DNA of 64,000 nt from Marinoscillum sp. 108 (lineage in GTDB: Bacteria; Bacteroidota; Bacteroidia; Cytophagales; Cyclobacteriaceae). A program made the position numbers and the translations under genes. Shown piece by piece: positions 38,570 to 62,918 of the stretch. A model generated the notes under the pieces. It was given only the letters and a program-made list of their open reading frames with translations, was not told the origin of the DNA and ran no database searches. Within the stretch, counting starts at the first letter, position 1. Each line of letters starts with the position of its first letter. Location of the stretch: NCBI RefSeq assembly GCF_902506655.1, contig NZ_LR734808.1:806001-870000 (forward strand), read 5' to 3'.

Positions 38570-38602
38570 AAAGAGAGCGTGAAGTCACATTTCTACTCAA
38601 AA
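38570..38602 (-). promoter_or_regulatory. PUL motif, copy upstream of DUF4861-GH105 operon
   Basis: On the gene strand, TTTTGAGTA (38602-38594) is followed after 16 bases by a weaker copy of the second half (38577-38570). Only its CTCTT core (38575-38571) is exact. The core-to-core spacing of 18 bases is the same as in the other three copies. It ends about 55 bases before the preferred start codon. Confidence 0.6.
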
Positions 38603-38654
38603 AACAGTTTAAAAATTCAAATTACTGACGTAACCCTATCAGTATCAATGGTAT

Positions 38655-40235
38655 TCAATACTCTATGTATTCCTGATCACCAATGTTGACCTGACTGGCC
38701 CATGATTGAAACAGGGAATCCAATTCCTTCAACTTCTGCGGGTTTTGCAAGGCCAAATTGGACTGCTCCAACGGATCAGAAGCCAGATCGTAAAGCTCAG
38801 TTTCGAACTCATCTCCCTGAGATACCAGCTTCCAATTGCCCTGCCGGACTGCACGATGCTCCTTGGGGTTACTCTGCCAGAAAAGAAGCTCATGTCCAGA
38901 ATCAGGGGCTCCTTTGAGGACTGGAACCAGACTCTTACCGTCAATAGGCAGAATGGGTTTCTCATTGAATTGGTCAGGATATTGGGCGTTGGCCAGTTCT
39001 AAAAAAGTAGGCATAAAATCAATTAAATGACCGACCCGATCAGTTGTACTTCCGGATGCGACCACACCCGGCCAGTTGACAATTAGTGGAGTTTTGATCC
39101 CTCCTTCATGGTTCCATCTTTTAAATCTCCTGTAGGGTGTATTGCTGGCGTTGGCCCAGCCAGCCCCTACTGAGCGGTAAGACTCCACAGGACCAGGTGC
39201 TATATCTGGTGTATAGTTGGCATCCTCAGCACAGCCCCCATTGTCAGACAGGAAGATAATGAGGGTGTTTTCTCTTTCACCCAGGGCCTCGAGCTTGTCC
39301 AGTACCCTTCCCACGTTTTGGTCTACCCGATCGATCATCGCCGCGTATACAGCCATTTTAGAAACCCACTCATCCTTATCTTCCACTTGCTCCCAGGGCT
39401 CTACCTCTTCGTCCCGATCGCCCAAGACCAGATGATCTTCTACTAAATTTAAGGCTTTCAATCTTTCAAACCGCTCCTGGCGAAGTGAATCCCAACCTGA
39501 TTTATACCGTGTTTTGTATTTCTCAATATCCTCAGGCCAGGCTTGCAGAGGATAGTGTGGTGCCGTATAGGCGATGTATAGGAGGAAAGGATCTGGCTCG
39601 TTTTTGTATTCCTCTAAATAGCTCAAAGCATAATCCGTGAAGGTATCTGTGGAGTAGAAATTTGGCTTCACGGTTTCGTATGGCAGATATTCCTGATCAT
39701 CAATGGCCCACCGTCTGGGATAGCCCCGGGGAACGGTAGTAAGCTTGCGGCCCGGCTCGGGTTCATTGAGTCTACCGGGGCCCGGATTGAAATGATTGGC
39801 TGCCCCGTCAGTCAATCCAAAATGCCGATCAAAACCGCGTTGAAACGGGGTTTCATCAGCGTGCCATTTACCCACCATCAGTGTTCGATACCCTGCGGGT
39901 TTTAGGGCTTCTGCAAAGGTGATGCTGTTTTGGTACTTACCAGGTCTGTTGGTATATATTCCTGCTTTTTGAGGATACACCCCCGTCAGCAGAGAGGTTC
40001 TGGAAGGAACACAGATGCCGTTATTATAAAAATTTGTGAACTTCATGCCTGAAGCTGCTAGTTGGTCAATGTTAGGCGTGTGAATCTCACCTCCAAAACA
40101 TCCAATATCAGAATAGCCCATATCATCTACCATTACCAAGACAATATTGGGCCGCTCCGTTTGGCTGGTATGCTGTTGACATCCCCCAAAGAGCAGACAG
40201 ACTACTAAGAATAGGTAACTCGACTTAAAGATCAT
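38655..40235 (-). CDS. Cys-type sulfatase (S1 family), lipoprotein
   Basis: A 526-residue sulfatase. The lipobox LLFGGC has Cys19 as the lipidation site. Metal ligands are at D37-D38 in 'IVLVMVDDMGY'. The modifiable formylglycine cysteine is C75 in C-V-P-S-R, the standard CxPSR motif, so it needs the maturase. Later landmarks are 'GKWHADETPFQRGFDRHFG', 'LYIAYTAPHYPLQAWPE' and 'LIIFLSDNGGC'. It hydrolyses sulfate esters on glycans, and the anchor places it in the periplasm or at the surface. It lies between the CBM96-like protein gene, after a strong terminator, and the DUF4861 operon, so it is probably its own unit. The S1 subfamily and sugar cannot be read off. Confidence 0.93.
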   Translation of the reverse strand: MIFKSSYLFLVVCLLFGGCQQHTSQTERPNIVLVMVDDMGYSDIGCFGGEIHTPNIDQLAASGMKFTNFYNNGICVPSRTSLLTGVYPQKAGIYTNRPGKYQNSITFAEALKPAGYRTLMVGKWHADETPFQRGFDRHFGLTDGAANHFNPGPGRLNEPEPGRKLTTVPRGYPRRWAIDDQEYLPYETVKPNFYSTDTFTDYALSYLEEYKNEPDPFLLYIAYTAPHYPLQAWPEDIEKYKTRYKSGWDSLRQERFERLKALNLVEDHLVLGDRDEEVEPWEQVEDKDEWVSKMAVYAAMIDRVDQNVGRVLDKLEALGERENTLIIFLSDNGGCAEDANYTPDIAPGPVESYRSVGAGWANASNTPYRRFKRWNHEGGIKTPLIVNWPGVVASGSTTDRVGHLIDFMPTFLELANAQYPDQFNEKPILPIDGKSLVPVLKGAPDSGHELLFWQSNPKEHRAVRQGNWKLVSQGDEFETELYDLASDPLEQSNLALQNPQKLKELDSLFQSWASQVNIGDQEYIEY

Positions 40236-40286
40236 TCCAACTTATTTGAATCCATTATAGAATACGACCCACTATCATGAGTACTT

Positions 40287-40323
40287 AAAAAAAGACCCAC
40301 CACGATTTCAACGTGATGGGTCT
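40287..40323 (-). terminator. Intrinsic terminator of the susCD-CBM96 operon
   Basis: The stem arms are 40293-40304 and 40312-40323 (11 of 12 pairs) with a seven-base loop. On the minus strand it runs into seven T residues (40293-40287). It starts 19 bases after the stop codon of the DNRLRE protein and marks the end of the FecR-SusC-SusD transcript. Confidence 0.88.
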
Positions 40324-40341
40324 TTATCACTATTTACTCTG

Positions 40342-42000
40342 TTATTGCTTAATAACTCTGCTCGTTTTGGAGCGTCCTTGTACATCGAATGTTTCGATCA
40401 GGTAGTTACCGGAAGTAAGTCCCTCGAGGGAAATCTCTACCAGCGAAGCTCCCGCCGGCACATCCTGCGCTCTTACCATTTTACCGGTAATGTTGTATAG
40501 TACCACTTTTACAATCTTCTGATCAGGGTTAACAATGGTAACCTTGTCCGAACTAGGATTTGGGTATACGTTAATCTTGTTGGCTTTCAACTCACTTGAC
40601 AGGACAACTTCGGGTTGTTCTACCACAATTTCAATATATGATCCACCATTGGAATGTTCTTTGGAATTGTATTGAGCCTTGAAGGTGGAGCCCTGTAGCG
40701 TAGTGCTTAGTTTCAGGGAAAGGATCTTGTCTGTCTCACCTTTTACTGCATCTGTTATATCGATGGCATGTGGTGATTCCAATGTTTCTCCTGCCGCAGA
40801 AGTTGTCTGAACTCCGGAAAGAGAGTCAAGAGAAGCCGGTCTGGTGTTACCTGTAATGGTGGCCTCAGACCAGGTGTCATCCTGGATATAAGAAACCCAT
40901 TGTGTACTGCCCTCTTCTCCCCACTTATTACCATAAGGGATCATGTACAAAGTGGCTGATTTAATCGCAGACAGATCAGAGATGTCCTTGGATAGGTCAT
41001 ATTTAAGGAATATCTCATGCAGGTTACTTCCTTCACCGGAAGCTGACTGCAGGTAGTCCTTATCACCATAGTTGTCATCGCCTCTGGAGCCAGTCCTCGT
41101 AAGCGCATCCTCTGCAGCGTAAACCTTAATGGTGGATACACCTTCAGCATCTACAACAATGTACCCTGATTGAGTCAATGAACTGGTACCCCCTGCATTG
41201 GTCGCTTCAAGTGTCACATCATATTTACCTTCTGCAGCATAAGTAACGGTTGGGTTTTGATCTGTACTTTCAGCGGGAGACCCACCCTCAAAAGTCCATT
41301 TCCAGCTTGTTGGTGAGTATTGGGATTCATCAGTGAAAGTGACTGACCCACCAGCCTTCAAAGATTGTTTGCTTGCCGAAAACGCAATTTTGGGTGAATA
41401 GAGTTCTACTTCAAGATACGTACCACCTTCTGAATATTCTTTCGAGTGGTATTCAGCCTTAAATGTTCCGGCTAAAAGACTACTACTCACTTTGATAGAA
41501 AGTTTCTTATCACTTTCTGCCTTTACCAAATCTGTAACATCAATGGTATGGATCGTTTCCAATGTAGCACCTCCAGCAGAAGTTGTCACAACGGCCGCCA
41601 CAGAATCCTGGGTTGAGCCAGGTGCGGTATTATACGTGATAGTCGCTTCATCCCAAGTATCGTCCTGAACATAAGATACCCACTGTGTACTACCGTCTTC
41701 CCCCCATTTAGAACCAAATGGAACAAGATTCAATTTAGCAGACTTGACCAGTTCAAGGTCTGGAATATCTTGAGACAGGTCATACCGTAGGTATATTTCA
41801 TGCAGATTACTTCCCTCTCCAGATGCAGCTTGCATGTAGTCTCTTGTTCCGAAGTTGTTATCTGACTGAGAGCCGGCTCTTACAAATGCATCGGCCTCTG
41901 CCTGAATTTGAACCTGAGCTTGCGCCGTGCCCACCTGAAGAATGATCATAAATGCCCATATGACACAAGCACTTAAAATTCGTTGTATGTTTTTGTTCAT
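40342..42000 (-). CDS. Surface glycan-binding protein: DNRLRE/CBM96-PKD-DNRLRE/CBM96-T9SS tail
   Basis: A 552-residue secreted protein without a catalytic domain. The signal peptide ends near GTAQAQ. Two copies of a DNRLRE (CBM96-type) module lie at about 29-205 and 295-465, both with 'AFVRAGSQSDNNFGTRDYMQAASGEGSNLHEIYLRYDLS'-like starts. A PKD domain lies between them (about 207-290, 'GKYDVTLEATNAGG'). A T9SS sorting domain is at 475-552 ('INVYPNPSSDKVTI'...). CBM96 modules in other systems bind uronate polymers such as alginate; here that is analogy. It follows susD by 111 bases, the place where SusE/SusF-like binding lipoproteins usually sit, and it ends at a strong terminator. I infer a surface glycan trap exported by T9SS instead of a lipoprotein. 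Confidence 0.85.
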   Translation of the reverse strand: MNKNIQRILSACVIWAFMIILQVGTAQAQVQIQAEADAFVRAGSQSDNNFGTRDYMQAASGEGSNLHEIYLRYDLSQDIPDLELVKSAKLNLVPFGSKWGEDGSTQWVSYVQDDTWDEATITYNTAPGSTQDSVAAVVTTSAGGATLETIHTIDVTDLVKAESDKKLSIKVSSSLLAGTFKAEYHSKEYSEGGTYLEVELYSPKIAFSASKQSLKAGGSVTFTDESQYSPTSWKWTFEGGSPAESTDQNPTVTYAAEGKYDVTLEATNAGGTSSLTQSGYIVVDAEGVSTIKVYAAEDALTRTGSRGDDNYGDKDYLQSASGEGSNLHEIFLKYDLSKDISDLSAIKSATLYMIPYGNKWGEEGSTQWVSYIQDDTWSEATITGNTRPASLDSLSGVQTTSAAGETLESPHAIDITDAVKGETDKILSLKLSTTLQGSTFKAQYNSKEHSNGGSYIEIVVEQPEVVLSSELKANKINVYPNPSSDKVTIVNPDQKIVKVVLYNITGKMVRAQDVPAGASLVEISLEGLTSGNYLIETFDVQGRSKTSRVIKQ

Positions 42001-42111
42001 GATTTGATTGTTTTTAGTTAGAAGTTCAATTACAGACGGACATAGTTTTCCTGTCTTTAAATAGTCATATTTAAAATTTACTAGTGAAATATGTATGCTT
42101 ACTTTTATCTC

Positions 42112-43611
42112 CTATTCATAGCCTGCATTTTGTGGCAGCAGGTTTGGATTTCTGTCCAATTCATCCTGCGGCAATGGCAAGTAGTAGTGTTTTGATGGAT
42201 CAAAGTTTGGCTGAGGCTCCATTGAATTAGCGCCCAGGAAAACCTCGTTACCCAATTTTCTTCTTTTGATGTCGTACCACCTTTTAAACTCAAAGGCCAA
42301 TTCCACCCGACGTTCTTCCATCACTGTTGCTCTGAATGCAGCCGCGTCTGCGGCCTCTATGGCACTCACATCTGCAGGGGTGGAAGCTCCATTTCTGGCT
42401 CTTGCTCTTACTTGATTGATATAGCCCTGCGCCTCAGCTGATGGGCCACTGATTTCATTCAGTGCTTCTGCCGCAATCAGGAGTACCTCGGCATAGCGAA
42501 AGAAAGCGTAGTTGTTGTCCGTTTTCCGGCCCTCGTTCTGTGCATTTCCATAAAATCTAAAATACTTCGCACAGTGTGGCCGTTTTTCGAAGGGATAGTC
42601 AGGATAACTTACCAGTGAATCTCCGATAAGGGTGGCAGACTCAAAAGTCACCGCTTTGCGATAATCTGAATCTGAAAAAGAATCGAATACAGCCATGGTA
42701 GGAACATTTACGCCCCAACCATTTTTGTCCGCTCCTCTAATACCTGTCATCGCACCCATGAAATCGTCATTAAGGTTGTTCTTTGTCACCAGTCCTAAAT
42801 AATCCAGTGAAAAGATGGTTTCAACTTGGTCATCCTGAAGGGCAGAGTTGAATAAATCCTGAAAGTCTGGGACCAAATCATAATTGAGCGCGGCACGATT
42901 GTCTATCACCCACTTGGCATTGTCATAGGCATCCTGCCAATTTCCCAGTGTCAGATGCACGGACGCTAAAAGTGTATAGGCACTGCCACTTGTAGCACGA
43001 CTCCTGATATTCCCAGGATGCTGCATGGGCAGATGCTCTCTGGCAAATTCCAGATCTTTGATGATGAACTGATAAACTTCATCCTCGGAAGTTTTGCTCA
43101 AAGTCGGCAGATCATTGGCCGGAGTGGTCTCAGTGACATACGGGATATCACCGAAAAGCCTGACCAAATGATAGTATATCAGTGCTCTTACAAATCGAGC
43201 TTCTCCCTCCAGTGCTCTTTTCACTTCAGGGTCAGCTGAAACATTTTGAGCTCCGAAAACGGCATTGTTGGCGGAAGCAATGATCTGATAGGATGCTGGC
43301 CAAAACTCTGTAATCATGCCATTCGTGGCATCCATGGTAAACTCATTGATCTCGATGCGTCTGGCAGCAGTTGAAGTATTTCCTATGTCCGCCATGTCGC
43401 TTAATAGCTGAATGGTGGTAGACAACTTGCGCCCCCAGAAGGTTTCCTGGGTCATCAGTCCATAGGCTCCAAAAATGCCCATTTCGACATCACCCGGGGT
43501 TCTGAAAAAACCATCCGGAGCCAGGTTACCGATAGGATCTTCCTCCAGATCTGCACAATTGAAGGTGCCAAAAGCGAGTGCGAAAAGTAATATTTTATTT
43601 AGGTATTTCAT
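42112..43611 (-). CDS. susD: SusD/RagB-type glycan-binding lipoprotein
   Basis: A 499-residue outer-membrane lipoprotein that lids the SusC pore. The signal peptide 'ILLFALAFGTFNC' ends in the lipidated Cys. 'DLEEDPIGNLAPDGFFRTPGDVEMGIFGAYGLM' is the family start; the TPR-like helices are around 'GEARFVRALIYYHLVRLFGDIPYVTE' and 'YTLLASVHLTLGNWQDAYDNAKWVI'. The C-terminus has 'YAEVLLIAAEALNEI', 'FRATVMEERRVELAFEFKRWYDIKRR' and 'YYLPLPQDELDRNPNLLPQNAGYE', all typical. It follows susC by 27 bases. The partner set (sigma factor, FecR) makes this a regulated Sus-type importer; the glycan is unknown. Confidence 0.95.
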   Translation of the reverse strand: MKYLNKILLFALAFGTFNCADLEEDPIGNLAPDGFFRTPGDVEMGIFGAYGLMTQETFWGRKLSTTIQLLSDMADIGNTSTAARRIEINEFTMDATNGMITEFWPASYQIIASANNAVFGAQNVSADPEVKRALEGEARFVRALIYYHLVRLFGDIPYVTETTPANDLPTLSKTSEDEVYQFIIKDLEFAREHLPMQHPGNIRSRATSGSAYTLLASVHLTLGNWQDAYDNAKWVIDNRAALNYDLVPDFQDLFNSALQDDQVETIFSLDYLGLVTKNNLNDDFMGAMTGIRGADKNGWGVNVPTMAVFDSFSDSDYRKAVTFESATLIGDSLVSYPDYPFEKRPHCAKYFRFYGNAQNEGRKTDNNYAFFRYAEVLLIAAEALNEISGPSAEAQGYINQVRARARNGASTPADVSAIEAADAAAFRATVMEERRVELAFEFKRWYDIKRRKLGNEVFLGANSMEPQPNFDPSKHYYLPLPQDELDRNPNLLPQNAGYE

Positions 43612-43638
43612 CTGAATTAATGTCTTGTTTTGAAACGA

Positions 43639-46600
43639 TTAAAATCCAACACTCAGTCCAACGGTATATGATTTAGCCATTGGATAACTGGCAAAGTCAA
43701 GCCCCAAATTCCTATTGGAGTCTTGTGCCCCTGAACTTCTGAAACTTACTTCAGGATCTACACCACTGTAATTGGTCGCTGTCCACAGGTTTTGTCCACT
43801 GACATAGATCTTGAAAGACCTCATATTCATCTTTTGAACCCATGACTTAGGTAATGTGTAGCCAATCGCCAGAGACTTCAGTCGGATGTAGCTACCGTCC
43901 TCAATCCATCGGGAAGAGAATCGTGCTGGTCGTGCTTTGATCGCCGGCACATCAGTATTGGTGTTTTCTGGTGTCCAGCTGTTTTTCATAGCCGCTGTGG
44001 CGTTGCTCTTGCCAATCAGCCCATCCAGCTCATACCTGGTATAGTTGGCAATCTCATTTCCTTGTGAACCCTGAAAGAAAATATTGAGATCAAAACCTTT
44101 GAAAGTGAAGGTGTTGTTGAATCCCCAAATGAAGTCAGGATTCGGGTTACCCATGATGGTACGATCCTCTGAAGTAAGCATTCCATCTTCATTCACGTCT
44201 TTGAATTTTTCTCCACCGACACCCTCACCACCGGACAGGACTTCTTCACCTTCCTGCTGTACACCTTCATAGACATAGCCGTAAAACATGCCCACTGGCT
44301 CTCCAACTCTTAGAATTTGATTTTCTCCTCCAAGCACTGCTCCGGGTGTGTTTTTGTAAAATACATCCACTGTGTCGCTCAACTTGAGGATTTTATTCCT
44401 GTTGATAGAGAAATTGACATCCATATTCCACTTAAAGGCTCCTACAATATTTCTGGAACTGATCCCGAGTTCGTACCCTCTGTTTTCCACTTCACCGGCA
44501 TTCCTCAGTGCTGTACTAAACCCTGAATATTCCGGTAGCGGCACTTCAAACAGCAAATCACTGGTGACCATTCGATAATAATCTGTGTTAATGATGATCC
44601 GGTCTTCAAACAATCCAATGTCTGCCCCTATGTCCACCTGGGCCGTACTCTCCCAAGTCAGGTCATTGTTGGCGATAGTAGCTGGTGCCACAGCGTTCAC
44701 AATGTGGCCTTGCTGAGTAGTGAGTACTTCTTTCAATGAAGCCAGGGTTTGATAAGGGTTTATGGCCTGGTTTCCGGTGACTCCATAGCTCGCACGGAGC
44801 TTCAATTCACTTAAGAATGACACGTCTTGCAGGAAAGCCTCATTATGTGCATTCCATCCAAGAGCAGCAGATGGGAAGTACGCCCATTTGTTATTCTTTG
44901 AAAATCTTGAAGACCCGTCATATCTGTTGGTCACGGTCAGGAGATACTTGCTTTTGTAGCTATAGTTGAGACGTCCGTAGTAGGAACTCAAAACTGACTC
45001 TTCGAGTGAAGATGATGGAAGAACCATGTTGGTACCGCCGCCCATGTTCCAATAGATGCCAGCATCATTCACAAAAGTTTGATTGGCCGAAAATCCGTAT
45101 TCACTGATGAAAGACTGGTATGAGTACCCGGCCACAATGTTCAAATTGTGGTCGCCTCCAAATTGCTTTGAGAAGGTGAAATAGTTCTCATTCAGCAAAG
45201 TAGATTTTCTGCGGAAAGTAAGCTCCGCTACCCCGCCTAAGCTTTCACCCTGAAGCAACGTGCGAGGCGCATAATAGCCTCTGCGCTCATTGGATATCAC
45301 TGCGCCTATGTTAGAACGGAACTTCAAATCCTCTAAGATTTTGACTTCTGCATAGATATTGGGCTGCACCCTATCCTCCTGCGTACTACTTTCTCTTTCA
45401 GTCGCCAAAGCGTATGGGTTGTCACTGGGGTCACCTACTATACTGCGAGTAAAATTCCCGTCTTCATCATATATTCCCAATGTTGGTGAAAACTTGTAGG
45501 CAGCACCTATCACTCCCTGGTTATGAGCACTACTGCTCGTCTCCTGAGTCTTGATTGCACCCTGGTCGATCCTTCGGGTGAAGAGATTCAATCCCAAATT
45601 CACCCGATCTGAGGCTTTTATGTCCAGGTTGCTGGTGATGGAGTATCGTTGGTAGTCAGAGTTTGCAATAATGCCCTGGTGGTCATAGTAAATCCCTGAG
45701 ACGTAATATTTCATATTGTCACTTCCTCCGGAGATGGATATGCTGTGGTTCTGGATGCTTCCCCTTCTCAGAATTTCGTCCTGCCAATTGGTTCCTTTAC
45801 CCATTGCTGCCGGATCGTCAAACATGGGATCTCTGCCACCACTGGCTTCTACAGCATTCATGTATTCCGCAAACTCGGAGGCATCGAGCAAATCCAACTT
45901 GTTGATTTCGGATTGTACGGAATAAGAAGACCTGAAATCTACCCTGGTCTGTCCGGCTTTCCCTCGTTTTGTGGTGATCATGATGACCCCATTGGCCCCT
46001 CTTGACCCATAAATCGCTGTGGCAGATGCGTCTTTCAAGATTTCAATAGACTCAATGTCCTCGGCTGGAGGTGCCGATCCTGTAGGGAAACCATCCACAA
46101 CAAAGAGTGGGTCACTGCTCGCATTAATAGAAGTACCACCTCTGATTCTTACCTTGTAACTGCCTCCCGGGTCGCCATTGTTAGACTGCACCGATACACC
46201 TGGTGCACGGCCTTGAAGTGCCTGTGTTACTCCAGAAGCAGGATATGCCGTAAGTGCTTCAGAACCTACTGATGCCACAGACCCTGTCACATCACTTTTC
46301 AAAACCGTACCATATCCGATGACCACTACTTCCTGAAGCTCACCTAAATCAATGGTGAGGTCTATATTCAATTGCGTCTGATTCGAAATGGTGATTTCCT
46401 CTGACTGATAGCCTATGTATGAAAACAGGAGAATGTCACCTCTATTGACTTCCAGTTCATAGTTTCCATCTATATCGGATACCGTTCCGCGGTTCAGGCC
46501 CTTGATTACAATGGTTACTCCGGGAACACCGGACGGACTGTCTTCAGCTGTGATTTTTCCTTTGATTGTCCAAGCTTCCTGTACCGGGGCGGTGTTTTCC

Positions 46601-46980
46601 TCCTGATTCTGCTCTTCATCCTTGGTGGTCACAAAGACATCATTGTTAACCCTTCGGAACATCAGGCCAGATTCCTTTGATAGGTCTCTCAATACATCTC
46701 CCATAGGCCGGCTACTGGCCTCAAGGGACACTCGATTGTTGACATCAAGTATGCCTTCGTTGTAGAGAAATTGGAATCCTGTTTGAGATTCGAGGTTTTT
46801 CAATACGCTGAGCAGTTGAGTATTCGTATCGCTGAGCGAAACATAAATCTCATCAATGCTTTTGGTTTGCCCAAAACTGGCTATCTCAGAAGCGAGGAGC
46901 AGAAACAAAGTGGGTAGCCAAATTCTGAAAAAGCTAAATGAGCTATGCTTTGCCTTATGGGGTTGAGGTTTCATCATCAA
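43639..46980 (-). CDS. susC: SusC/RagA-type TonB-dependent transporter with STN signalling domain
   Basis: A 1113-residue outer-membrane transporter. Domains: signal (about 10-38), STN secretin/TonB short domain (about 45-125, 'LKNLESQTGFQFLYNEGILDV...RDLSKESGLMFRR'), carboxypeptidase-like domain (about 136-215, 'GVTIVIKGLNRGTVSDIDGNYELEV'), plug ('VVVIGYGTVLKSDVTGSVASVG', 'PLFVVDGFPTG', 'DASATAIYGSRGANGVIMITTKRG') and the long barrel ending 'SYTVGLSVGF'. The STN domain contacts FecR, so substrate binding can be signalled across the envelope. FecR is encoded 53 bases upstream. It forms the import gate with SusD. Confidence 0.95.
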   Translation of the reverse strand: MMMKPQPHKAKHSSFSFFRIWLPTLFLLLASEIASFGQTKSIDEIYVSLSDTNTQLLSVLKNLESQTGFQFLYNEGILDVNNRVSLEASSRPMGDVLRDLSKESGLMFRRVNNDVFVTTKDEEQNQEENTAPVQEAWTIKGKITAEDSPSGVPGVTIVIKGLNRGTVSDIDGNYELEVNRGDILLFSYIGYQSEEITISNQTQLNIDLTIDLGELQEVVVIGYGTVLKSDVTGSVASVGSEALTAYPASGVTQALQGRAPGVSVQSNNGDPGGSYKVRIRGGTSINASSDPLFVVDGFPTGSAPPAEDIESIEILKDASATAIYGSRGANGVIMITTKRGKAGQTRVDFRSSYSVQSEINKLDLLDASEFAEYMNAVEASGGRDPMFDDPAAMGKGTNWQDEILRRGSIQNHSISISGGSDNMKYYVSGIYYDHQGIIANSDYQRYSITSNLDIKASDRVNLGLNLFTRRIDQGAIKTQETSSSAHNQGVIGAAYKFSPTLGIYDEDGNFTRSIVGDPSDNPYALATERESSTQEDRVQPNIYAEVKILEDLKFRSNIGAVISNERRGYYAPRTLLQGESLGGVAELTFRRKSTLLNENYFTFSKQFGGDHNLNIVAGYSYQSFISEYGFSANQTFVNDAGIYWNMGGGTNMVLPSSSLEESVLSSYYGRLNYSYKSKYLLTVTNRYDGSSRFSKNNKWAYFPSAALGWNAHNEAFLQDVSFLSELKLRASYGVTGNQAINPYQTLASLKEVLTTQQGHIVNAVAPATIANNDLTWESTAQVDIGADIGLFEDRIIINTDYYRMVTSDLLFEVPLPEYSGFSTALRNAGEVENRGYELGISSRNIVGAFKWNMDVNFSINRNKILKLSDTVDVFYKNTPGAVLGGENQILRVGEPVGMFYGYVYEGVQQEGEEVLSGGEGVGGEKFKDVNEDGMLTSEDRTIMGNPNPDFIWGFNNTFTFKGFDLNIFFQGSQGNEIANYTRYELDGLIGKSNATAAMKNSWTPENTNTDVPAIKARPARFSSRWIEDGSYIRLKSLAIGYTLPKSWVQKMNMRSFKIYVSGQNLWTATNYSGVDPEVSFRSSGAQDSNRNLGLDFASYPMAKSYTVGLSVGF

Positions 46981-47033: not shown

Positions 47034-48110
47034 TCATCCAGGAGCTCTGGGTTTTTCCACTTCCATGATCTTGATTTTCTTTCCTTCTATTTTAAAATCA
47101 AATTTTGAGGTGTAACCGATCCCCTCCAGCACTCTTCTCAGCGATTGGTTATCAAATCTTCCTGTAAAACCATCGGTGATTTCCACAGATTTTTCGATTT
47201 CGAACTCCACGCCGTACCATCGCTCGAGTTTTTTCACGATTTCCTCAAAAGTGGCTCTCTCAAAAACAAGAATTCCGGATTTCCATGCGAGTATTTCATC
47301 AGTATCCACTTCCACGATTTCAGAAAACTTGTCTTCGTTGATGTTATAGCTTACCAATTCGGAAGGGTTCAATACCACACCGGAAATATTATCCCACTGG
47401 AGTCTGTCGGGTTCACTTTGATTGAAGCGGGAGACAGAAACCAAACCTGACACTACTGCCACATCAACCAGTCCTTCCTCTCCATAGGATTTCACATTAA
47501 AAGAGGTGCCCAGAACCTGGGTTCGGATGTTACCGGAAATTATCACGAAAGGTTTGTCAGTATTCCTCTTCACATCGAAAAAGGCTTCACCTTCTAGCCA
47601 AACGGCACGAAGGTCTTTGTCAAAACTACTTTTGTAAGTAAGCCGACTGCCCGAATTCAACTTCACAGTACTTCCATCAGGTAGGGTTACCTGCATTTTT
47701 CGGCCATTGGGACAGTCCTTGGTGATGGTAGTTTCCACCATCTCAACGGGGCCCTCATTCTTCTGGAAATTGGAGATGAGCCAAAAGGTAGAAACCACTA
47801 TTGGGATCAGAACTGCTGCTACTTTTACCCAATCACGAAGCTTCCAGCCCATCTGCACCTGGTGAGTATCACTCGTCAATCGATCAATTCGATTCCAGAT
47901 TTGCTCCTCTTCATGCCGTGTGAAGCTCAAATCCTGATATTTTAAGGATTGAATCACTTCGGCCGCTTCATTCGCTATGCTCACTAAATCCGGTGTTTGA
48001 GCCAGTCTAACGCGCCATTCTCTACCATCAGGTGAATCATGATCCATGATGTAGGAAATAAACGAGTTATCGTTTAGTAAATCTTCTACGGTGTAATTCT
48101 TTTTGTTCAT
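47034..48110 (-). CDS. FecR-type anti-sigma factor
   Basis: A 358-residue inner-membrane protein. The N-terminal cytosolic part (1-93) carries an anti-sigma-like helical region. One membrane helix is at about 94-113 (WVKVAAVLIPIVVSTFWLI). The periplasmic part has the FecR domain ('CPNGRKMQVTLPDGSTVKLNSGSRLTYKSSF...VWLEGEAFFDVKRNTDKPFVI') and a C-terminal DUF4974 domain ('FERATFEEIVKKLERWYGVEFEI...FTGRFDNQSLRRVLEGIGYTSKF'). It would hold the ECF sigma factor inactive until SusC carries substrate. It is separated from the LacI gene by 118 bases, which include the conserved PUL motif, and followed by susC, so FecR-SusC-SusD-CBM96 form their own transcript. Confidence 0.93.
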   Translation of the reverse strand: MNKKNYTVEDLLNDNSFISYIMDHDSPDGREWRVRLAQTPDLVSIANEAAEVIQSLKYQDLSFTRHEEEQIWNRIDRLTSDTHQVQMGWKLRDWVKVAAVLIPIVVSTFWLISNFQKNEGPVEMVETTITKDCPNGRKMQVTLPDGSTVKLNSGSRLTYKSSFDKDLRAVWLEGEAFFDVKRNTDKPFVIISGNIRTQVLGTSFNVKSYGEEGLVDVAVVSGLVSVSRFNQSEPDRLQWDNISGVVLNPSELVSYNINEDKFSEIVEVDTDEILAWKSGILVFERATFEEIVKKLERWYGVEFEIEKSVEITDGFTGRFDNQSLRRVLEGIGYTSKFDFKIEGKKIKIMEVEKPRAPG

Positions 48111-48128: not shown

Positions 48129-48161
48129 TAAGAGGACTCTCATTCTTCTTTTTACTCAAAA
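48129..48161 (-). promoter_or_regulatory. PUL motif, copy upstream of fecR-susCD
   Basis: On the gene strand, TTTTGAGTA (48161-48153), 16 bases, then TCCTCTTA (48136-48129). It ends 18 bases before the fecR start codon. If the two halves are -35 and -10 elements the transcript would start only about a dozen bases before the ATG. Confidence 0.7.
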
Positions 48162-48228: not shown

Positions 48229-49245
48229 TTATGTTCTCGATCTATTCGTGGATTCGCGAATGATGAGTTTTGGTTTGATCAGAGTGGAAACACTCACAGA
48301 TTGTTTGTTGCCCTCGATGCTATTCAACAGCAGCTTGGATGTTGACTTGCCCATATCCACTCCAAATTGCTCCAATGTAGTGAGCGAGGGAGTAATCATT
48401 TCAGTAAGAGGCTCATTGCCAAATCCGGCAACGCCCACCTCCTGAGGAACGTTGTACCCTTTACATTTAAGATAATTGAGTGCCCCAAGAGCAGAAAGGT
48501 CACTGGCAGCAAAGAACGCATCAGGTGGGTTATCACTTTGCATGATCCCTCCTGCAACCACCTCTGCTGTATCAATAGTGATGGCTTCCAAAATCAGACT
48601 TTGATCAAACGGAATGTGAGCAGCTTCGAGTGCGCATGCATATCCGTCTAATCGCTCACGATAAAGTTTGAGGTTTTGCGGTCCTGATAGATGTGCTATT
48701 CTGGAATACCCCTGGTCAATCAGGTGACTTACCATCTCATAGGCACCTGAAAAATTGTCGTTGACAACTTTGCTTGAATTCAGATCATCCACTATCCGAT
48801 CAAATTGCACAAATGGTATTCCTGATTGGTTAATTAATTTCAAATGATCGTTTCCGTGAGTTTCTTTTGAATTTGAAATCAGGATACCATCCACACGGTT
48901 ATTAATGAGGGTTTCAATCGCCTTCTTTTCCTGATTCAGGCCTTCGTTGCTTTGACAGATGACAAGATTGTACCCGTGGGCATTCAATACCACCTCCATG
49001 CCATGAATAACGCTCGCAAAAAAATGTCTCTGAATTTGAGGAAGGATCACCCCAATGGTATTACCCCTACCGCTCCTTAGGTTAGACGCAATTTTATTTG
49101 GTCGATATCCAAGCTCCCTGGCCTTCTCATTTACCAGTTTTTTCGTCTTTAAACTGATTCGGGGATTGTTAGCAATAGCCCTAGAAACGGTTGCAGCACT
49201 GATCTCAAGCTCGCTGGCTATATCATAAATGGTAGCATCTCTCAT
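48229..49245 (-). CDS. LacI-family transcriptional regulator
   Basis: A 338-residue regulator. The N-terminal helix-turn-helix is 'TIYDIASELEISAATVSRAIANNPRISLKTKKLVNEKARELGYRPN' with the hinge helix 'KIASNLRSG'. The rest is a periplasmic-binding-protein fold, with 'NTIGVILPQIQRHFFASVIHGMEVVL', 'RVDGILISNSK', 'QGYSRIAHLSGPQ' and 'VGVAGFGNEPLTEMITPSLTTLEQ'. It would respond to a small sugar or oligosaccharide. Its ATG overlaps the sigma-factor stop (ATGA), so they are translated together. A LacI regulator fused into a sigma/FecR control cassette gives the locus two separate inputs: one cytosolic and one from the cell surface. Confidence 0.93.
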   Translation of the reverse strand: MRDATIYDIASELEISAATVSRAIANNPRISLKTKKLVNEKARELGYRPNKIASNLRSGRGNTIGVILPQIQRHFFASVIHGMEVVLNAHGYNLVICQSNEGLNQEKKAIETLINNRVDGILISNSKETHGNDHLKLINQSGIPFVQFDRIVDDLNSSKVVNDNFSGAYEMVSHLIDQGYSRIAHLSGPQNLKLYRERLDGYACALEAAHIPFDQSLILEAITIDTAEVVAGGIMQSDNPPDAFFAASDLSALGALNYLKCKGYNVPQEVGVAGFGNEPLTEMITPSLTTLEQFGVDMGKSTSKLLLNSIEGNKQSVSVSTLIKPKLIIRESTNRSRT

Positions 49246-49931
49246 ATTCCGAAAGAACCGGTACCACTTATCAGCCAGGGCAATACCACGTGAAGTCTAT
49301 CCCTCAGTACTTCCAATGCCCGATAGATGTTATTGTAAACTGACTGCATGTTGATCCCCAGGATGTCAGCGATCTCCTGGTTGGTCATGTTAGAGTAATA
49401 CTTCAAATAAAGCACCTCCTTTTGTCGCGGTGTGAGGGCATCCAGTTCCCTTCTCATTTTCAGTATTCGCTCGGAGGATTCTTCCCCCAGGATCTTGATC
49501 ATTTCATAAGAAGGCTGAAAGTCCACTTTTGAATTTCCGGTAAGGGAGCTCAGAGATGATTTCTTATTTCCACGAGCCATTTTGCGGATCACATCCCGCC
49601 GGACTGACTTCAATAAATAAAACCTGATTGAATTTACAGAAGCGAGCTCTCCCCGCTTATTCCAGAGATGGACAAAAATATCCTGGATGGAATCCTGAAC
49701 GAGATCTTTGTCCGATGCAATCCTCATTGCATAGTTGGTCAAATACTTGATAGAGTTGTTATATATTGTTTCAAATGCTAACCGATCTCCCGATTGGAAT
49801 GCCTTCCATAATTCACGTTCTGAATTATCATCTTTCACTGATTTGATCATATTCAACTCTGGTCTTAAATCTGGGGTTTGAAAGGACGGTTGCATATTCT
49901 TAAGCAGATAAGTTAATGGAAATGGGATCAA
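49242..49931 (-). CDS. ECF-type RNA polymerase sigma factor
   Basis: An ECF sigma factor of up to 229 residues. Region 2 is 'AFQSGDRLAFETIYNNSIKYLTNYAMRI...LVQDSIQDIFVHLWNKRGEL'. Region 4 is 'ELDALTPRQKEVLYLKYYSNMTNQEIADILGINMQSVYNNIYRALEVLRDRL'. The first 27 residues are not part of the fold; an ATG at 49848-49850 giving 202 residues is a good alternative start. The FecR gene and an STN-bearing SusC gene lie downstream, the classic set for surface signalling. The gene begins 41 bases after the GH2 stop, so it may be co-transcribed with the enzymes as well as controlling them. It is the candidate reader of the bipartite motif found before four PUL units. Confidence 0.92.
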   Translation of the reverse strand: MIPFPLTYLLKNMQPSFQTPDLRPELNMIKSVKDDNSERELWKAFQSGDRLAFETIYNNSIKYLTNYAMRIASDKDLVQDSIQDIFVHLWNKRGELASVNSIRFYLLKSVRRDVIRKMARGNKKSSLSSLTGNSKVDFQPSYEMIKILGEESSERILKMRRELDALTPRQKEVLYLKYYSNMTNQEIADILGINMQSVYNNIYRALEVLRDRLHVVLPWLISGTGSFGI

Positions 49932-57259: not shown

Positions 57260-57606
57260 GAGATCTATTGATTAAGAAACGACACTATGAAACCTGCTGA
57301 TGAATGAGCTGACCCGATGAGGTCAAGTTCAAAACTTTTTTGGCAGCTGCGAGGAATTCCCTGTGTCCTTGCGCTTGGGTATGCGGCTAGGCGTTTCTTA
57401 TTCATTTCTTTCCGAGTTAGTTGAAATGGCTAATTCGATTAGCCCAATTCTTTAAGTTTCAAAATTTGCAAGAGCGACATCAATCCCTCCATTCACATGT
57501 AAGAGGAAGCACACTGCTTTTTTTACTCAAAAATTTTCAATTATTTCACTCGACTCGGTGGATGCAATAGAGATCGGCTGAATCTTAAAGGGTTTTGCTC
57601 ATCCCT
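57260..57606. other. Intergenic region before beta-helix P2, long leader with motif and palindrome
   Basis: No gene. It holds the PUL motif (57500-57532) and, inside the presumed leader, a 7-base inverted repeat ggctaat-tcg-attagcc (57428-57444) that could be a hairpin or a regulator site. The remainder up to the esterase stop codon is AT-rich. Confidence 0.5.
57500..57532 (-). promoter_or_regulatory. PUL motif, copy upstream of beta-helix P2-P1-GH2-sigma unit
   Basis: On the gene strand, TTTTGAGTA (57532-57524), 16 bases, TCCTCTTA (57507-57500). All 17 defined bases match the fecR copy. It lies 240 bases before the P2 start codon. Confidence 0.7.
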
Positions 57607-58509
57607 CTATTTGGTGGGCTCCGGTTGTTGGAGCAGGTTATTCAGTTCTCTTGCAAACCGAACACCCAGGTCAATATAGTCCGCGCTGGTGTAATGCCAT
57701 GGGTCTGAATATTGGTAATATCGGGTTTGACGAACGATCGCTGCATTCTTATCCGTCCTTACAAATTCTTCCTGTCCGTATTGAACCAATTCGCCATATT
57801 TCCATACTTTTCCATGGTATCGCTCATGCCAGGAATCCGAAATTTTCCCAATGACAATGGGTAGGTTGTCATCCCTCAGAGCTGCCCTCAATAGTGTCAT
57901 TAGTTCCCTCAAGTGATTGTAATATCTCCCGGCGATCTCAGCGGTAGGTGCGTCGCTCTCGCCCTGCATCCAGATGATACCTGAGGGCACCAGCACTTCA
58001 TCTACTCCGTCCAGGTCAATGTCGGTATTCGCAAAGGCATTTCGCAACGTGCTAAGGAAATGGTCATATTGATTGATTTTACTCCGAAAGTGGGGATCCC
58101 AATTTCCTCTGCGCGGATTGCCGAGGGTATCTATAGCTGTACCACCCTTGGAGTATTTAATGAGCGCTATTTTTTCTCCAGGGTAGAGTTCCTGCATTTT
58201 TGCAGCGAATGACAACTCCACGCCGAATCGCTCTGACAATTGATTGCTATCTGCAGTGCTTTGATGGCCTGTGCCGTGCCCGGGTTTCAATACTTCCCAA
58301 ACTCCGTCACCACCTGCTTCGCCATCATTGGCCCTATTGCCATGGAAAATATAAACATCATCAAAGGATCTCAAATCATTTGGCAGGTCTGTGTTATATC
58401 CATGCCCGTCCATATTGGACTGACCACCCAGATAAAATACTTTTATGGTTTCCTGCCCAGTCGATAAGAGAGGAATGAGAAATATGAGGCTCAATACAAG
58501 TTTTAGCAT
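57607..58509 (-). CDS. SASA-type SGNH carbohydrate O-acetylesterase
   Basis: A 300-residue secreted esterase. Signal peptide about 1-18 (IPLLSTGQ). The nucleophile is Ser31 in 'YLGGQSNMDGHG', the block I motif of SASA/CE6-like esterases. Block III is 'PSGIIWMQGESDA'. The catalytic Asp-His pair is D269 and H272 in 'SDPWHYTSADYIDLG'. Length and triad are complete. It should remove acetyl groups from the glycan so that backbone enzymes can act. It stands between two beta-helix genes, starting 83 bases after the P3 terminator and ending 347 bases before P2. The family includes sialate- and xylan-acetylesterases, so the acceptor sugar is not fixed. Confidence 0.87.
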   Translation of the reverse strand: MLKLVLSLIFLIPLLSTGQETIKVFYLGGQSNMDGHGYNTDLPNDLRSFDDVYIFHGNRANDGEAGGDGVWEVLKPGHGTGHQSTADSNQLSERFGVELSFAAKMQELYPGEKIALIKYSKGGTAIDTLGNPRRGNWDPHFRSKINQYDHFLSTLRNAFANTDIDLDGVDEVLVPSGIIWMQGESDAPTAEIAGRYYNHLRELMTLLRAALRDDNLPIVIGKISDSWHERYHGKVWKYGELVQYGQEEFVRTDKNAAIVRQTRYYQYSDPWHYTSADYIDLGVRFARELNNLLQQPEPTK

Positions 58510-58621: not shown

Positions 58622-58636
58622 CATTTTAAAGATTAA

Positions 58637-61600
58637 TTACTTTTTGATTATTCTGACAGCCTTTGGCTCCTCGCCGGCAAGTCTCAGATCGAGGATGTAA
58701 ACTCCTGATGGCAACTGACCGGTTTTGATGTTGAAAAGCTTCCCAGAAAGTTCACCACTGGAAATAACCGCTCCGCTAATAGACCGGATGCTATAACTTC
58801 CGTTGAGATCAAGATCCGTTCTGCTTATTTTAAGAAAATCAGCTACCGGATTTGGGTACACACTCACGGAGGTTTCTTCTTTAAAGACCTCTTCCACCGC
58901 AATTTCTGTGGCTACTCTGCTACCCGAATTGATAGAAATATTGCAGATATCAACCTGATAGCCTGAATTTGTGGAGGCTAAAATGGCAGCCAGATTGTTA
59001 ATCGCAGAAGGAGTTCCATTTAAATTATTGTCACTGGCAATCTGAGATGGGGAGTCCCCTATTTTATTAGCAAAAACATCATACGTGTAGTTGGTCATAT
59101 CAACAACCATCTTAATATGATAGGTTTCACCAGCTGAAAACGGAATTTGAGTAGATGGCCAACCCTGACCACTTCTGGCGACAATTTTACCATCCTTAAA
59201 CCTTATCATAGTGGCTACGTCATTGTCATGGCTCGATGAACCATTTGACAAACCGATTCGAGAGTGTACGTTATGACTTGGCGTCACATCGAACTCTGCT
59301 GTGAAGTCACCCGACTGGCTTGTGATGGAGGTATTGACCCATGAATTATTGTTAGGCAGCACCACACAACTCCCTCCAGAATTAGAAACCGTAACGGTAA
59401 TACTTGAAGAAGTGGTCGAATTGCTCGCCGCATCAGTTGCTACAGCTGTCAAAGTATGCGATCCATTTGATGCATTGTTGGTATCCCAGCTAAATGAATA
59501 TGGTGCTGAGGTATCCTGTGAACCAAGGTTATTACCATCCAATTTGAATTGTACCCCTACCAGATCACTATCAGGATCAGAGGCTGTTGCCGTAATACTG
59601 ATCGTCCCAGATACAGTAGCACTATTACTTGGAGAAGTAATCGACACAGTAGGCGAACTACCTCCACTTGCGTTGGAAACAGTTACTGATCTGGCTGCTG
59701 AAGTAGTGACATTACCAGCAGCATCTGTTGCCACAGCAGTGAGCGTATAAACAGCATTCGACACACCCGTCGTGTTCCAGCTATAGGAAAAAGGAGAGCT
59801 AGTATCCTGCGAACCAATATTACTACCGTTCAATTTAAATTGTACACCAACCAAATCTGAATCTCCATCTGAAGCAGTAGCAGTAATGCTAACGGTACCA
59901 GAAACCGTGGCGTTATCACCAGGTGCTGTAAGTGCCACGACAGGAGGTGTAGATGAACTACCATTCCCATTTATCACTATATTGCATATATCCACCGCAT
60001 AGCCACTGTTCGTGCTTTTTAGGACTGCTGGTAGTCTATCGATTTTGGTGATAGAAGATGAATTACTGTGAAACGCATTGTCGTCTCCGATCTGAGTCGG
60101 TGAATCTCCATCCGCATTGGCAAAAACATCATAGGTATGATTGGTAAGGTCAACCACCATCTTGATGTGGTAGACTTCATCCGCGATATAGGTAATGTGT
60201 GTGGAGGGATACCCCTGATTGTCTCTCACGTGTATTTTACCACTTTGGAACCTAATCATGGCTGCCACATCGTTGGCCGAACTCACATCTCCATCCGACA
60301 AACCAATTTCACTGTTTACCGTCGCGTTTGGAGTAACATCAAATTCGATGGTAAACCCACTGGTTTGGTTGGCCAAACTGGTGTTTACCCAGGTGTTTGT
60401 GTTGGGAAGTGTGATACACGTGGGCGCTACATTGTCTACCGTCACGTTAATAGTGGAAGATGTGGTGCTCAGACCAGCCGCGTCACGGGCAACTGCTGTA
60501 AGCGCGTAAGAACCGTTCGTGACTGATGAAGTATTCCATACAACCGAATAAGGATATGAAGTATCTTCCGCCCCAAGATTGACGCCATCTAACTTGAATT
60601 GGACACCCACAAGGTCTCCATTGGTATCGCTGGCAGTAGCCGACACTGTTACCATTTCACTCACCGTTGAATTGTTAGCAGGTCCGGAAATCGATACTGT
60701 AGGTGCCACATCGACTTGATTGTCAACGATCACGGTAATCGAGGAAGAATACCCCAAATTTCCATTATCATCTCTGGCCACCGCAGTGAGGACATGATTC
60801 CCTTCACTTGCACCAGTGGTGTTCCAACTTACAGAATAAGGGGAACTAGTGTCCTCAGATCCAAGATCTACTCCATCCAATTTGAATTGGACACCTGCCA
60901 AATCATTGTCGGTATCTGACGCTGAAGCAGTGACAGTGATGGTCCCGTCAACGGTTGCATTATTGGCTGGGCTTGTAATGGAAACCGTAGGTATAGCACC
61001 ATTGGCACTAGGAGCCAATGCTCCTGCCCAGGCTTGCTGGTAAGTGTCAGAACTACTGTATCCAACTCCAGAAGTACTTCCAAATGTGATCCCTGAAGTA
61101 AGGTTGTAATGTGGAGAGCTTGTGGTAGGGCGAGCATTAGGGATGACGATGGTCTCTGGCCCTGTAAACATACCCATGGTAAAAGTATAGCTGGTATTAT
61201 TGGCCGCTGCGGCTGTAGAATAGCTGATCGAATTGGATCCTTCAAAACTATGCCCACTGCTGTTATAGAAAGCATTGTAGTCTGAAATGGTTCCAGATGG
61301 TGAGTCACTTAATGTCCCTCCACCGTCGATGATTACATTACCTACTATGCGGGTATTGTACGCTCTGGATTCAAACCATTCCTGATCTCCAAACTTTTCC
61401 TCTACCTCAATAACAGTATTCAGATAAATATCATGACTGTGCTCGGTATTTTTCTGAAACCAGAAAGCAAAGCGCTCAGCCCGGTACATCAAGTTTCGAC
61501 GGATCGTATAATGATCTGTCTTATCTCCACCTCTGGTATTGAAGGGTATCCTGCAATCCACAAAGATATTGTCTTCCACCAGCATGTAGCTCTTATACGT

Positions 61601-62530
61601 GCCGTCATTGCTATGATCGATTGCTCCCTGATCGTCGTTCGGGCTGGTGCCTCCAGGGACTTTTGACAGGTTTCTAAACCTATTCTTTTTTATCAGGATG
61701 TGGTCGCCAGATGTCGATGTTCCCGCATTTTTGATGTCAATGCCGTTTTCATGAGGTATCTCGGAGACACTGGAACTGTACTTGGATGGATCGATGTAAA
61801 TATCATTGTCATAAATGACCGTGCCTTTAAAGGGCTGATCAGGTCCAAGCTGGATACCATCACCTGCGAAATTGTAAATTTCGTTGTGAACGATTCGATT
61901 ATAATCGCCCACGTCAAACTTGATTCCATGATTGTCCTCATTGGTGGAGATTTGAGTGTTCCGAATCACACAGTGCTGTACCACGGAGTAGTTGGCTGGA
62001 CCCTTCCCACTGCCAGAACCTCCAATGGCTATTTGACCGGCTCCTCCGCCTCCTTTCTCTATCAAGCATCTGTTCAACACTTGATAATCATCTACGAGGT
62101 ACACGTTGGGGTTTCTGGTGGGTTCGTCACCAATAGCCCTGATCCGATCCAATCTCCAATAAGCGCCTTCTACATTGATCCTGCCAAAGGTGACATAATC
62201 AGAAGGGTCCATATCCACAGGGTGTGTGGTATAGTCCGTGGGGTTATTTGGATCATAATAGATCAGCCACCGTGGATTGCTGGCTGTGCCATCTCCGGTC
62301 AATGCCGTGGTGCCTAAACTGGTATAATCACCAGGCTGTATAAAGAAAATACGCTTTCCAGATGTATTAATGACCGAACTGAAATTAGCCGGGGAAGTAA
62401 TCATCCCCATTTCGCTATTGCCGGAATCATAGACAGGAATCGTGAGAGACTCCTCGTAGGGCCCCTGGGCCCGAGCGATAAAAATTAATGCCATCACCAT
62501 GAGGCATGTTAGTAGGGTTTTTTTCATCAT
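58637..62530 (-). CDS. Beta-helix protein P3 with four Ig-like and two LamG-like modules and T9SS tail
   Basis: A 1297-residue secreted protein, the largest of the paralogs. Signal peptide 1-21. Beta-helix at about 25-500 with 'PGDYTSLGTTAL', 'PRWLIYYDPNN', 'RIVHNEIYNFAGDGIQLGP', 'VIYDNDIYIDPSKY', 'IPHENGIDIKNAG' (H260) and 'DQGAIDHSND'. Then Ig-like (Big_7) modules at about 508-700, a concanavalin/LamG-like module at 703-860 ('FTIEFDVTPNATVNSEIGLSDGDVSS...MIRFQSGKIHVRDNQG...YHIKMVVDLTNHTYDVFANADG'), two more Ig-like modules (860-1053), a second LamG-like module (1053-1200) and a T9SS domain (1213-1297). The doubled unit Ig-Ig-LamG arose by internal duplication. It has its own motif upstream and terminator downstream. 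Presumed extracellular depolymerase with glycan-binding arms. Confidence 0.83.
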   Translation of the reverse strand: MMKKTLLTCLMVMALIFIARAQGPYEESLTIPVYDSGNSEMGMITSPANFSSVINTSGKRIFFIQPGDYTSLGTTALTGDGTASNPRWLIYYDPNNPTDYTTHPVDMDPSDYVTFGRINVEGAYWRLDRIRAIGDEPTRNPNVYLVDDYQVLNRCLIEKGGGGAGQIAIGGSGSGKGPANYSVVQHCVIRNTQISTNEDNHGIKFDVGDYNRIVHNEIYNFAGDGIQLGPDQPFKGTVIYDNDIYIDPSKYSSSVSEIPHENGIDIKNAGTSTSGDHILIKKNRFRNLSKVPGGTSPNDDQGAIDHSNDGTYKSYMLVEDNIFVDCRIPFNTRGGDKTDHYTIRRNLMYRAERFAFWFQKNTEHSHDIYLNTVIEVEEKFGDQEWFESRAYNTRIVGNVIIDGGGTLSDSPSGTISDYNAFYNSSGHSFEGSNSISYSTAAAANNTSYTFTMGMFTGPETIVIPNARPTTSSPHYNLTSGITFGSTSGVGYSSSDTYQQAWAGALAPSANGAIPTVSITSPANNATVDGTITVTASASDTDNDLAGVQFKLDGVDLGSEDTSSPYSVSWNTTGASEGNHVLTAVARDDNGNLGYSSSITVIVDNQVDVAPTVSISGPANNSTVSEMVTVSATASDTNGDLVGVQFKLDGVNLGAEDTSYPYSVVWNTSSVTNGSYALTAVARDAAGLSTTSSTINVTVDNVAPTCITLPNTNTWVNTSLANQTSGFTIEFDVTPNATVNSEIGLSDGDVSSANDVAAMIRFQSGKIHVRDNQGYPSTHITYIADEVYHIKMVVDLTNHTYDVFANADGDSPTQIGDDNAFHSNSSSITKIDRLPAVLKSTNSGYAVDICNIVINGNGSSSTPPVVALTAPGDNATVSGTVSITATASDGDSDLVGVQFKLNGSNIGSQDTSSPFSYSWNTTGVSNAVYTLTAVATDAAGNVTTSAARSVTVSNASGGSSPTVSITSPSNSATVSGTISITATASDPDSDLVGVQFKLDGNNLGSQDTSAPYSFSWDTNNASNGSHTLTAVATDAASNSTTSSSITVTVSNSGGSCVVLPNNNSWVNTSITSQSGDFTAEFDVTPSHNVHSRIGLSNGSSSHDNDVATMIRFKDGKIVARSGQGWPSTQIPFSAGETYHIKMVVDMTNYTYDVFANKIGDSPSQIASDNNLNGTPSAINNLAAILASTNSGYQVDICNISINSGSRVATEIAVEEVFKEETSVSVYPNPVADFLKISRTDLDLNGSYSIRSISGAVISSGELSGKLFNIKTGQLPSGVYILDLRLAGEEPKAVRIIKK

Positions 62531-62918
62531 TCTTAGTTTTTGTTTAACTGTTCATTAACTGGTGTTTTTCATCTGTTCTTCTTTTTTAGAGTGCGAGTAT
62601 GACCTGACTGTGGGGCATTTATGCCAGACAACAGAGGTTGTCAGTGTAGATCGATCGAATTCCACAGTGCGTACATAAGAGGAGATCTTCAGTTTTTTCT
62701 ACTCAAAATATTTTGATAATTTTTCATTTCACTGCTTGTGATGTCTTATCTAAAAGGTGAGGTTCTCAATAGATTATTTGTGAAAAAGCGACTCAGACGG
62801 ACTTTTACCAAGCCAATCCGGAATAGATTTTTTTGATGATTAGTGAGTATAGACTGTCCCTTTCGTCCTCTTTTTAAAGTCCACCCTTTAGGTTTTAAAA
62901 TGTGTACTTCTCAATGAA
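62531..62918. other. Divergent intergenic region between P3 and LamG gene
   Basis: 388 bases without a gene. It holds the PUL motif (62676-62708) 145 bases before the P3 ATG. In the P3 leader there are two small hairpins, ggcat-tt-atgcc and gacaac-agag-gttgtc (around 62618-62642), which could shape the 5' end of the P3 mRNA. No canonical promoter is evident for the plus-strand gene. Confidence 0.5.
62676..62708 (-). promoter_or_regulatory. PUL motif, copy upstream of beta-helix P3
   Basis: On the gene strand, TTTTGAGTA (62708-62700), 16 bases, TCCTCTTA (62683-62676). All 17 defined bases match the fecR and P2 copies. The bases around it also resemble the P2 copy, as if the promoter regions were duplicated together with the genes. 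Confidence 0.7.

Follow-up and report, generated by a model that had tools for sequence, protein, structure and literature searches.

In Has heme signalling, the extracytoplasmic function (ECF) sigma factor HasI drives hasS, the gene of its own anti-sigma factor, and hasR, the receptor gene, and a -35 element shared by the two, TTTACGGGTTT, has been put forward as its possible target (PMC9249621). FecI, by the same account, controls a single promoter before fecA (PMC9249621), and FecI-like groups were excluded as non-autoregulating in the relevant section of another study (PMC3817407). Bacteroides thetaiotaomicron has 26 sigma/anti-sigma systems with sugar genes, according to a 2013 paper that calls the prediction of ECF-controlled promoters a challenging task (PMC3878776). 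A 5′ end published for another such system lies within BT1876, 291 bases 5′ of BT1875 (PMC11501099). The pertinent part of a 2020 report gives a motif for B. fragilis EcfO and for no B. thetaiotaomicron ECF sigma factor (PMC7366714). For SigW-1, which is linked to a polysaccharide utilization locus (PUL), a 2025 study obtained a non-significant motif; it proposed non-canonical elements for SigW-1 and SigH-1, with TGTT near -10 for SigW-1 (PMC12596196). An ECF-type promoter motif with a CGT -10 box and targets in the type IX secretion system (T9SS) is reported for Flavobacterium psychrophilum SM6 (PMC9723704). Here we analyse a 64,000-nucleotide stretch of the Marinoscillum sp. 108 genome (contig NZ_LR734808.1, positions 806,001 to 870,000; hereafter the window), in which a bipartite motif stands before the transcription units of a PUL. 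We conclude that this motif is very probably the promoter of the locus's own FecI-like ECF sigma factor, encoded at 49242-49931.

The initial annotation had placed TTTTGAGTA-N16-TCCTCTTA before four units of the locus and had offered two readings, the promoter class of the ECF sigma factor or the site of another PUL regulator, such as the neighbouring LacI protein. A search of the 64-kb window recovered three exact copies and a fourth copy with three mismatches, whose weaker second half, CTCTCTTT, keeps the CTCTT core intact, so that both the coordinates and the N16 form stand as first described. The four predicted promoters are listed below with their ranks under an independent promoter model and the letters shared with their counterparts in a genome of the same genus (G001), both described further on.

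62676..62708, minus strand: promoter P3, TTTTGAGTA-N16-TCCTCTTA, exact; model rank 1; G001 counterpart -35 9/9, -10 6/8
57500..57532, minus strand: promoter P2, exact; model rank 5; G001 counterpart -35 9/9, -10 8/8
48129..48161, minus strand: fecR promoter (fecR-susC-susD-CBM96-sulfatase), exact; model rank 2; G001 counterpart -35 9/9, -10 7/8
38570..38602, minus strand: weaker promoter before the DUF4861 unit, 3 mismatches; model rank 4; G001 counterpart -35 9/9, -10 6/8

With up to three mismatches the window holds 6 copies, compared to a mean of 0.19 and a maximum of 1 in 100 dinucleotide shuffles. The statement that the motif occurs nowhere else in the 64 kb thus holds for the exact form and fails for two additional three-mismatch copies. 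One of these (35444-35476, minus strand) lies within the aldo/keto reductase gene, 5′ of the SBF transporter gene, and scores 13.7 with a generic fecR-promoter model, eighth in the window list. The other (62841-62873, plus strand) is located 45 bases 5′ of the ATG of a divergent open reading frame (ORF) with a LamG domain (62919-63614) and scores 9.25, last among the 25 best places listed; it is possibly an additional candidate promoter for that ORF, not an established one. The distance from the end of the motif to the ORF start is 145 bases for P3, 240 for P2 and 18 for fecR. At the DUF4861 site it is 15 bases to the TTG of the listed ORF or 54 to an ATG at 38515; distances are as variable as had been noted, with a lower end of 15 rather than 18.

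The search of the whole genome and of related genomes that had been suggested as a check was carried out. In the 5,210,585 bases of the source genome, copies with no or one mismatch are limited to the three exact window sites. At up to three mismatches there are 31 places, the window's 6 included, against 32 (14+18) for a backward-pattern control; three-mismatch places elsewhere in the genome are at chance level. Because the closest copies are confined in this way and the broader count does not exceed the control, the exact form of the motif is specific to this locus. Among 146 genomes, the source genome included, 11 have matches with no or one mismatch, and only in the source genome and G001 do such matches adjoin a sigma-fecR pair. 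Outside these two genomes, 9 genomes contribute 10 places (G092 has two, on separate contigs), against 10 places for the control. One of them, in G140, is exact. A profile of the source genome's FecR proteins detected no fecR within 3 kb around any of the 10 places, and a sigma-like ORF was present only in G016 (E-value 7.5e-8), where it overlaps the place itself. The distribution of the sigma factor is the same: among six genus genomes, it is found at an E-value of 1e-40 in the source genome and G001 only, and no other close orthologue was seen among these six and 390 family genomes, the next best match by E-value being 40% identical. A further orthologue scan of genome contigs returned 18 loci at 21-27% identity, none of which was used further. 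Sites beside a sigma-fecR pair are thus present only where the orthologue of the sigma factor is encoded.

G001 contains a collinear locus of 15 proteins 52-82% identical to those of the window, without lacI and without the SASA gene. Its ECF sigma factor is 63% identical to that of the window, and the region 4 segment SVYNNIYRALEVLRD is the same in both. Four sites (at 40584, 27978, 36312 and 18483) each precede the counterpart of a window unit, and they rank 1, 2, 3 and 5 in 50 kb under a promoter model built without either genome. The fecR start is 18 bases from its site in G001 as well. Automatic alignment of the P2 upstream regions failed to match up the two sites because the site-to-gene distances differ between the genomes; the box counts therefore come from direct site-to-site comparison. 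All nine -35 letters are shared at each of the four pairs, and 27 of 32 -10 letters, compared to 20 of 64 spacer letters. Each of the eight sites keeps N16, in line with the constant distance of about 16 bases that separates the boxes of ECF promoters, and each spacer opens with AAA or GAA. Conserved boxes around a drifting spacer of fixed length would be the expectation for a promoter. The absence of lacI (48229-49245, minus strand) and of the SASA gene (57607-58509, minus strand) from the otherwise collinear locus implies, for each gene, a gain or a loss after the two genomes diverged.

A second line of evidence comes from fecR genes of other genomes. From the family and order we fetched 108 loci with sigma homologues, all high in the match lists (G192:C78 was fetched twice). 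Removing 19 in which no downstream fecR was detected, and then 4 upstream regions that were redundant or short, left 85 regions, or 83 without the window lineage. A first de novo search for two boxes yielded TGAGtAa and CtcTTA. A longer run on the 83 regions returned an A/T tract followed by tGAgtAaA (log-likelihood 232.7), and a run on all 85 reached 199.7, while 20 shuffled sets reached at most 111.4 (100 starts for each shuffled set, 200 for real runs). When regions were aligned on the A/T tract and -35 box alone, positions 25-29 read C, T, T/C, T, T. In the 73 regions that passed the anchor score, C[CT][CT]TT is found at offset 25 in 20 regions and 36 times over the remaining 54 offsets combined; the window sites share this offset of 25. 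The corresponding binomial value (4e-24) treats related sequences as independent and is not to be taken as a probability. A model from the 72 of these promoters that were long enough ranked the four window sites 1, 2, 4 and 5 over both strands. A two-fold held-out test gave a median score of 9.7; the medians of reverse complements and shuffles were 5.5 and 3.9. Between sigma factors 50-70% identical, 80% of the -35 letters and 66% of the -10 letters agree, compared to 51% and 34-36% for pairs 20-40% identical; for spacer letters the values are 33% and 27%.

The genes of the locus form four minus-strand units, judged from ORF positions, with domains assigned from Pfam/TIGRFAM-type profile matches.

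62530-57607, minus strand: P3 unit, a large T9SS-tailed immunoglobulin (Ig)-domain protein, then a SASA esterase
57607-58509, minus strand: SASA esterase gene, second gene of the P3 unit
57259-48229, minus strand: P2 unit, two beta-helix proteins, GH2, ECF sigma factor, LacI
49242..49931, minus strand: FecI-like ECF sigma factor, regions 2 and 4 (Pfam Sigma70_r4_2 2.7e-14, Sigma70_r2 9.9e-6)
48229..49245, minus strand: LacI-family regulator between sigma and fecR (LacI 2.1e-11, Peripla_BP_1 7.2e-30)
from 48110, minus strand: fecR unit, FecR, SusC, SusD, CBM96 protein, sulfatase
47034..48110, minus strand: FecR anti-sigma factor (FecR 2.8e-16, FecR_C 5e-20)
43639..46980, minus strand: SusC-like TonB-dependent receptor (TIGR04056, 906.8 bits)
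42112..43611, minus strand: SusD-like lipoprotein (SusD_RagB 1.4e-35)
3′ of the 38570-38602 site, minus strand: DUF4861 unit, DUF4861, GH88/GH105-type protein (PF07470), aldo/keto reductase, SBF transporter, HbpS

The sigma factor matches TIGR02985 (Sig70_bacteroi1) with 96.3 bits, under the cut-off of 126.4. The SusC-like protein has a possible N-terminal STN signalling domain at residues 69-119, a nearly full-length match with an E-value of 0.032 and 14.5 bits against a cut-off of 28.4. A sigma factor with regions 2 and 4 is accompanied by a FecR-type anti-sigma factor, as in FecI/FecR surface signalling, and together with the SusC that carries the weak STN match these proteins would make a surface-signalling set. 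The P3 protein, the first product of its unit, had been named a beta-helix protein; Pfam gives it Ig-like and T9SS domains and no beta-helix. The P2 (54653-57259, minus strand) and P3 (58637-62530, minus strand) proteins appear to be paralogues, each being 41-43% identical to the G001 counterpart of the other.

Taken together, conservation in G001, the independent fecR-promoter model, the same -10 offset in other genomes and the lack of further genome copies with no or one mismatch support the promoter-class option. RNA polymerase carrying the 49242-49931 sigma factor would read a -35 box TTTTGAGTA(RAA) and a -10 box of about TCCTCTTA. Entry of a glycan through SusC would send a signal to FecR, which would then free or activate the sigma factor, and the latter would switch on four units, namely the operon that encodes it, fecR-susCD and two other units with enzyme genes. 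At the sequence level, a predicted promoter of this kind stands ahead of the receptor operon, 18 bases 5′ of fecR-susCD. The P2 site 5′ of the sigma-bearing unit implies that the sigma factor may activate its own gene; since both sigma and fecR are under the motif, positive feedback through the former and negative feedback through the latter are predicted. Sigma binding and sigma dependence are inferred, as are the points where transcripts start and how far each one runs, the individual events of the signalling and the glycan that induces the locus.

Several observations weigh against this interpretation. Only two genomes have the motif beside this sigma factor, and the footprinting comes from one pair. 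The SASA, CBM96 and sulfatase genes are each preceded by a gap of 100-130 bases in which no match with up to three mismatches was found. Rank 4 of the model in G001 is a site other than the four, and its rank 3 in the window falls on the plus strand within the P3 gene (58852), which we take as chance. The de novo optimum differs between runs (TGAGtAa/CtcTTA in one, the A/T tract with the -35 box in another). In six further held-out tests, a mean of 38% of regions exceeded the 95% shuffle level compared to 6% of reverse complements, and one of the six failed (15% and 15%). Among the source genome's 12 fecR genes just three score at least 17, the window's own included. Finally, the correlation of sigma and promoter similarity is low (Mantel rho 0.07 for -35 and 0.10 for -10) and stronger only above 50% identity. 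The rho of 0.05 obtained for the spacer is likewise rarely reached by permutation, and shared ancestry therefore contributes.

The promoter might serve several sigma factors of the cell rather than being private to one. The -35 core GAGTA is indeed also present 5′ of other fecR genes of the genome, for example at loci L024 and L027, but the full two-box form has no other copy with no or one mismatch. Moreover, the L024 paralogue has a form of its own, which is exact once in the genome and has two 2-mismatch places compared to two for the control, so no multi-copy regulon was seen for it. We consider a shared promoter unlikely. Binding by an activator encoded elsewhere, such as a two-component or AraC-type regulator, has in its favour that dimeric activators, too, typically bind two-part sites at a fixed spacing. 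The hybrid two-component system (HTCS) sites that are described for Bacteroides are two-part direct repeats (PMC3878776); TTTTGAGTA and TCCTCTTA are, by inspection, not repeats of each other, and an HTCS site was rejected as a candidate. Besides this lack of repetition, the spacing and -10 offset of the motif agree with fecR promoters of other genomes, and only the two genomes that encode the sigma orthologue were seen to use it in several copies next to the sigma gene, which makes an activator of this kind very unlikely.

The LacI protein has the advantage of position, its gene lying between sigma and fecR and directly beside one site. LacI operators are usually palindromes. The halves of the motif are, by inspection, neither inverted nor direct repeats of each other, and all four sites are kept in the G001 locus, from which lacI is missing: the 50 kb at the start of that contig gave no counterpart. 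The best LacI elsewhere in G001, one of 12 matches, is 44% identical; such a distant protein could read the same site. With neither symmetry nor co-occurrence in its favour, we regard the motif as highly improbable as a LacI operator, the option that the initial annotation had left beside the promoter. Upstream DNA rich in A and T is prone to T-rich words, a point in favour of a chance origin, which the shuffle and genome controls oppose. A translation signal or RNA element would not be expected to have spacer letters that drift at a conserved spacing, nor to stand at 15 to 240 bases from the start codon; the probability of either chance or such an element is negligible. The Bacteroidota housekeeping promoter, with consensus TTTG / TAnnTTTG (PMC7366714), was rejected as well: no TAnnTTTG -7 box was found in the 350 bases 5′ of seven PUL gene starts, weak evidence given 0.08 expected per stretch by chance.

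Beyond the sigma factor's promoter in this locus, a scaffold of the same kind recurs, judging by upstream sequences, 5′ of many though not all fecR genes of the order. In 41 fecR upstream regions (12 from the source genome, including the window's, and 29 from a class-level search), the median score was 7.8, compared to 4.2 for both shuffles and reverse complements, and many single regions were not above shuffles. The scaffold was found in 6 of the 36 testable sigma upstream regions and 71 of the 83 fecR regions, the latter mostly training data. As sigma upstream regions mostly do not have it, the apparent target in most of these loci is the anti-sigma gene rather than the sigma gene; in the window and in G001, the sigma-bearing operon also has a site. 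We give even chances to a broader rule, by which the FecI-like sigma factors that belong to glycan loci of the order would share an A/T tract, a GAGTA-type -35 box and a CTCTT-type -10 box at fixed offset before fecR and not before sigma, each sigma lineage having private letters. If this is true, the regulon of each PUL sigma factor would be readable from sequence alone. No description of this scaffold was found in the literature at the level of titles and abstracts; a prior description in the 2021 ECF reclassification is possible.

For a paralogous sigma-fecR pair a distinct form, TTTGGAGTA-N18-TYCTTTCTA, is shared by two species of the genus (G000:C1:3592552-3592587, locus L174 of the source genome, and locus L054 of G002); it is exact only once in the source genome. 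When 32 regions upstream of fecR in the distant genome G551 were searched de novo, a different pattern emerged, so the scaffold was not shown to extend to this genome. The fecR-susC gap of G551 loci L206-L237 has a conserved aTGCCTATGa soon after the fecR stop (log-likelihood 130.7; six shuffled sets gave 61-73). Visual inspection often shows a G+C-rich inverted repeat between this element and susC. The element may be a short leader or attenuator.

A defined two-box site and one proposed sigma factor make the question of PUL ECF promoters directly testable, and recurrence 5′ of other fecR genes suggests the anti-sigma gene, not the sigma gene, as the place to look. The HasI/HasS/HasR system of the genus Serratia is like the window locus in that an ECF sigma factor acts on the promoters of its own anti-sigma and receptor genes. 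It differs in its signal (heme there, a glycan here) and in its box sequences, and the window adds the sigma gene and two enzyme units to the predicted targets. With E. coli FecI/FecR/FecA the locus shares a sigma factor, a FecR-type regulator and a TonB-dependent receptor, and the N-terminal signalling domain of the E. coli receptor may have its counterpart in the weak STN match here, whereas one promoter is controlled there and four are predicted here, including those of sigma and fecR. The F. psychrophilum SM6 case is another ECF-type promoter motif in Bacteroidota; here, however, the -10 box reads CTCTTA and the predicted targets are those of a PUL. The Bacteroides PULs with ECF sigma/anti-sigma pairs likewise combine a sigma factor, a FecR-like anti-sigma factor and SusC-linked signalling in a glycan locus (PMC3878776, PMC11501099); a TGTT-type element has been proposed there, in contrast to the different two-box site predicted here.

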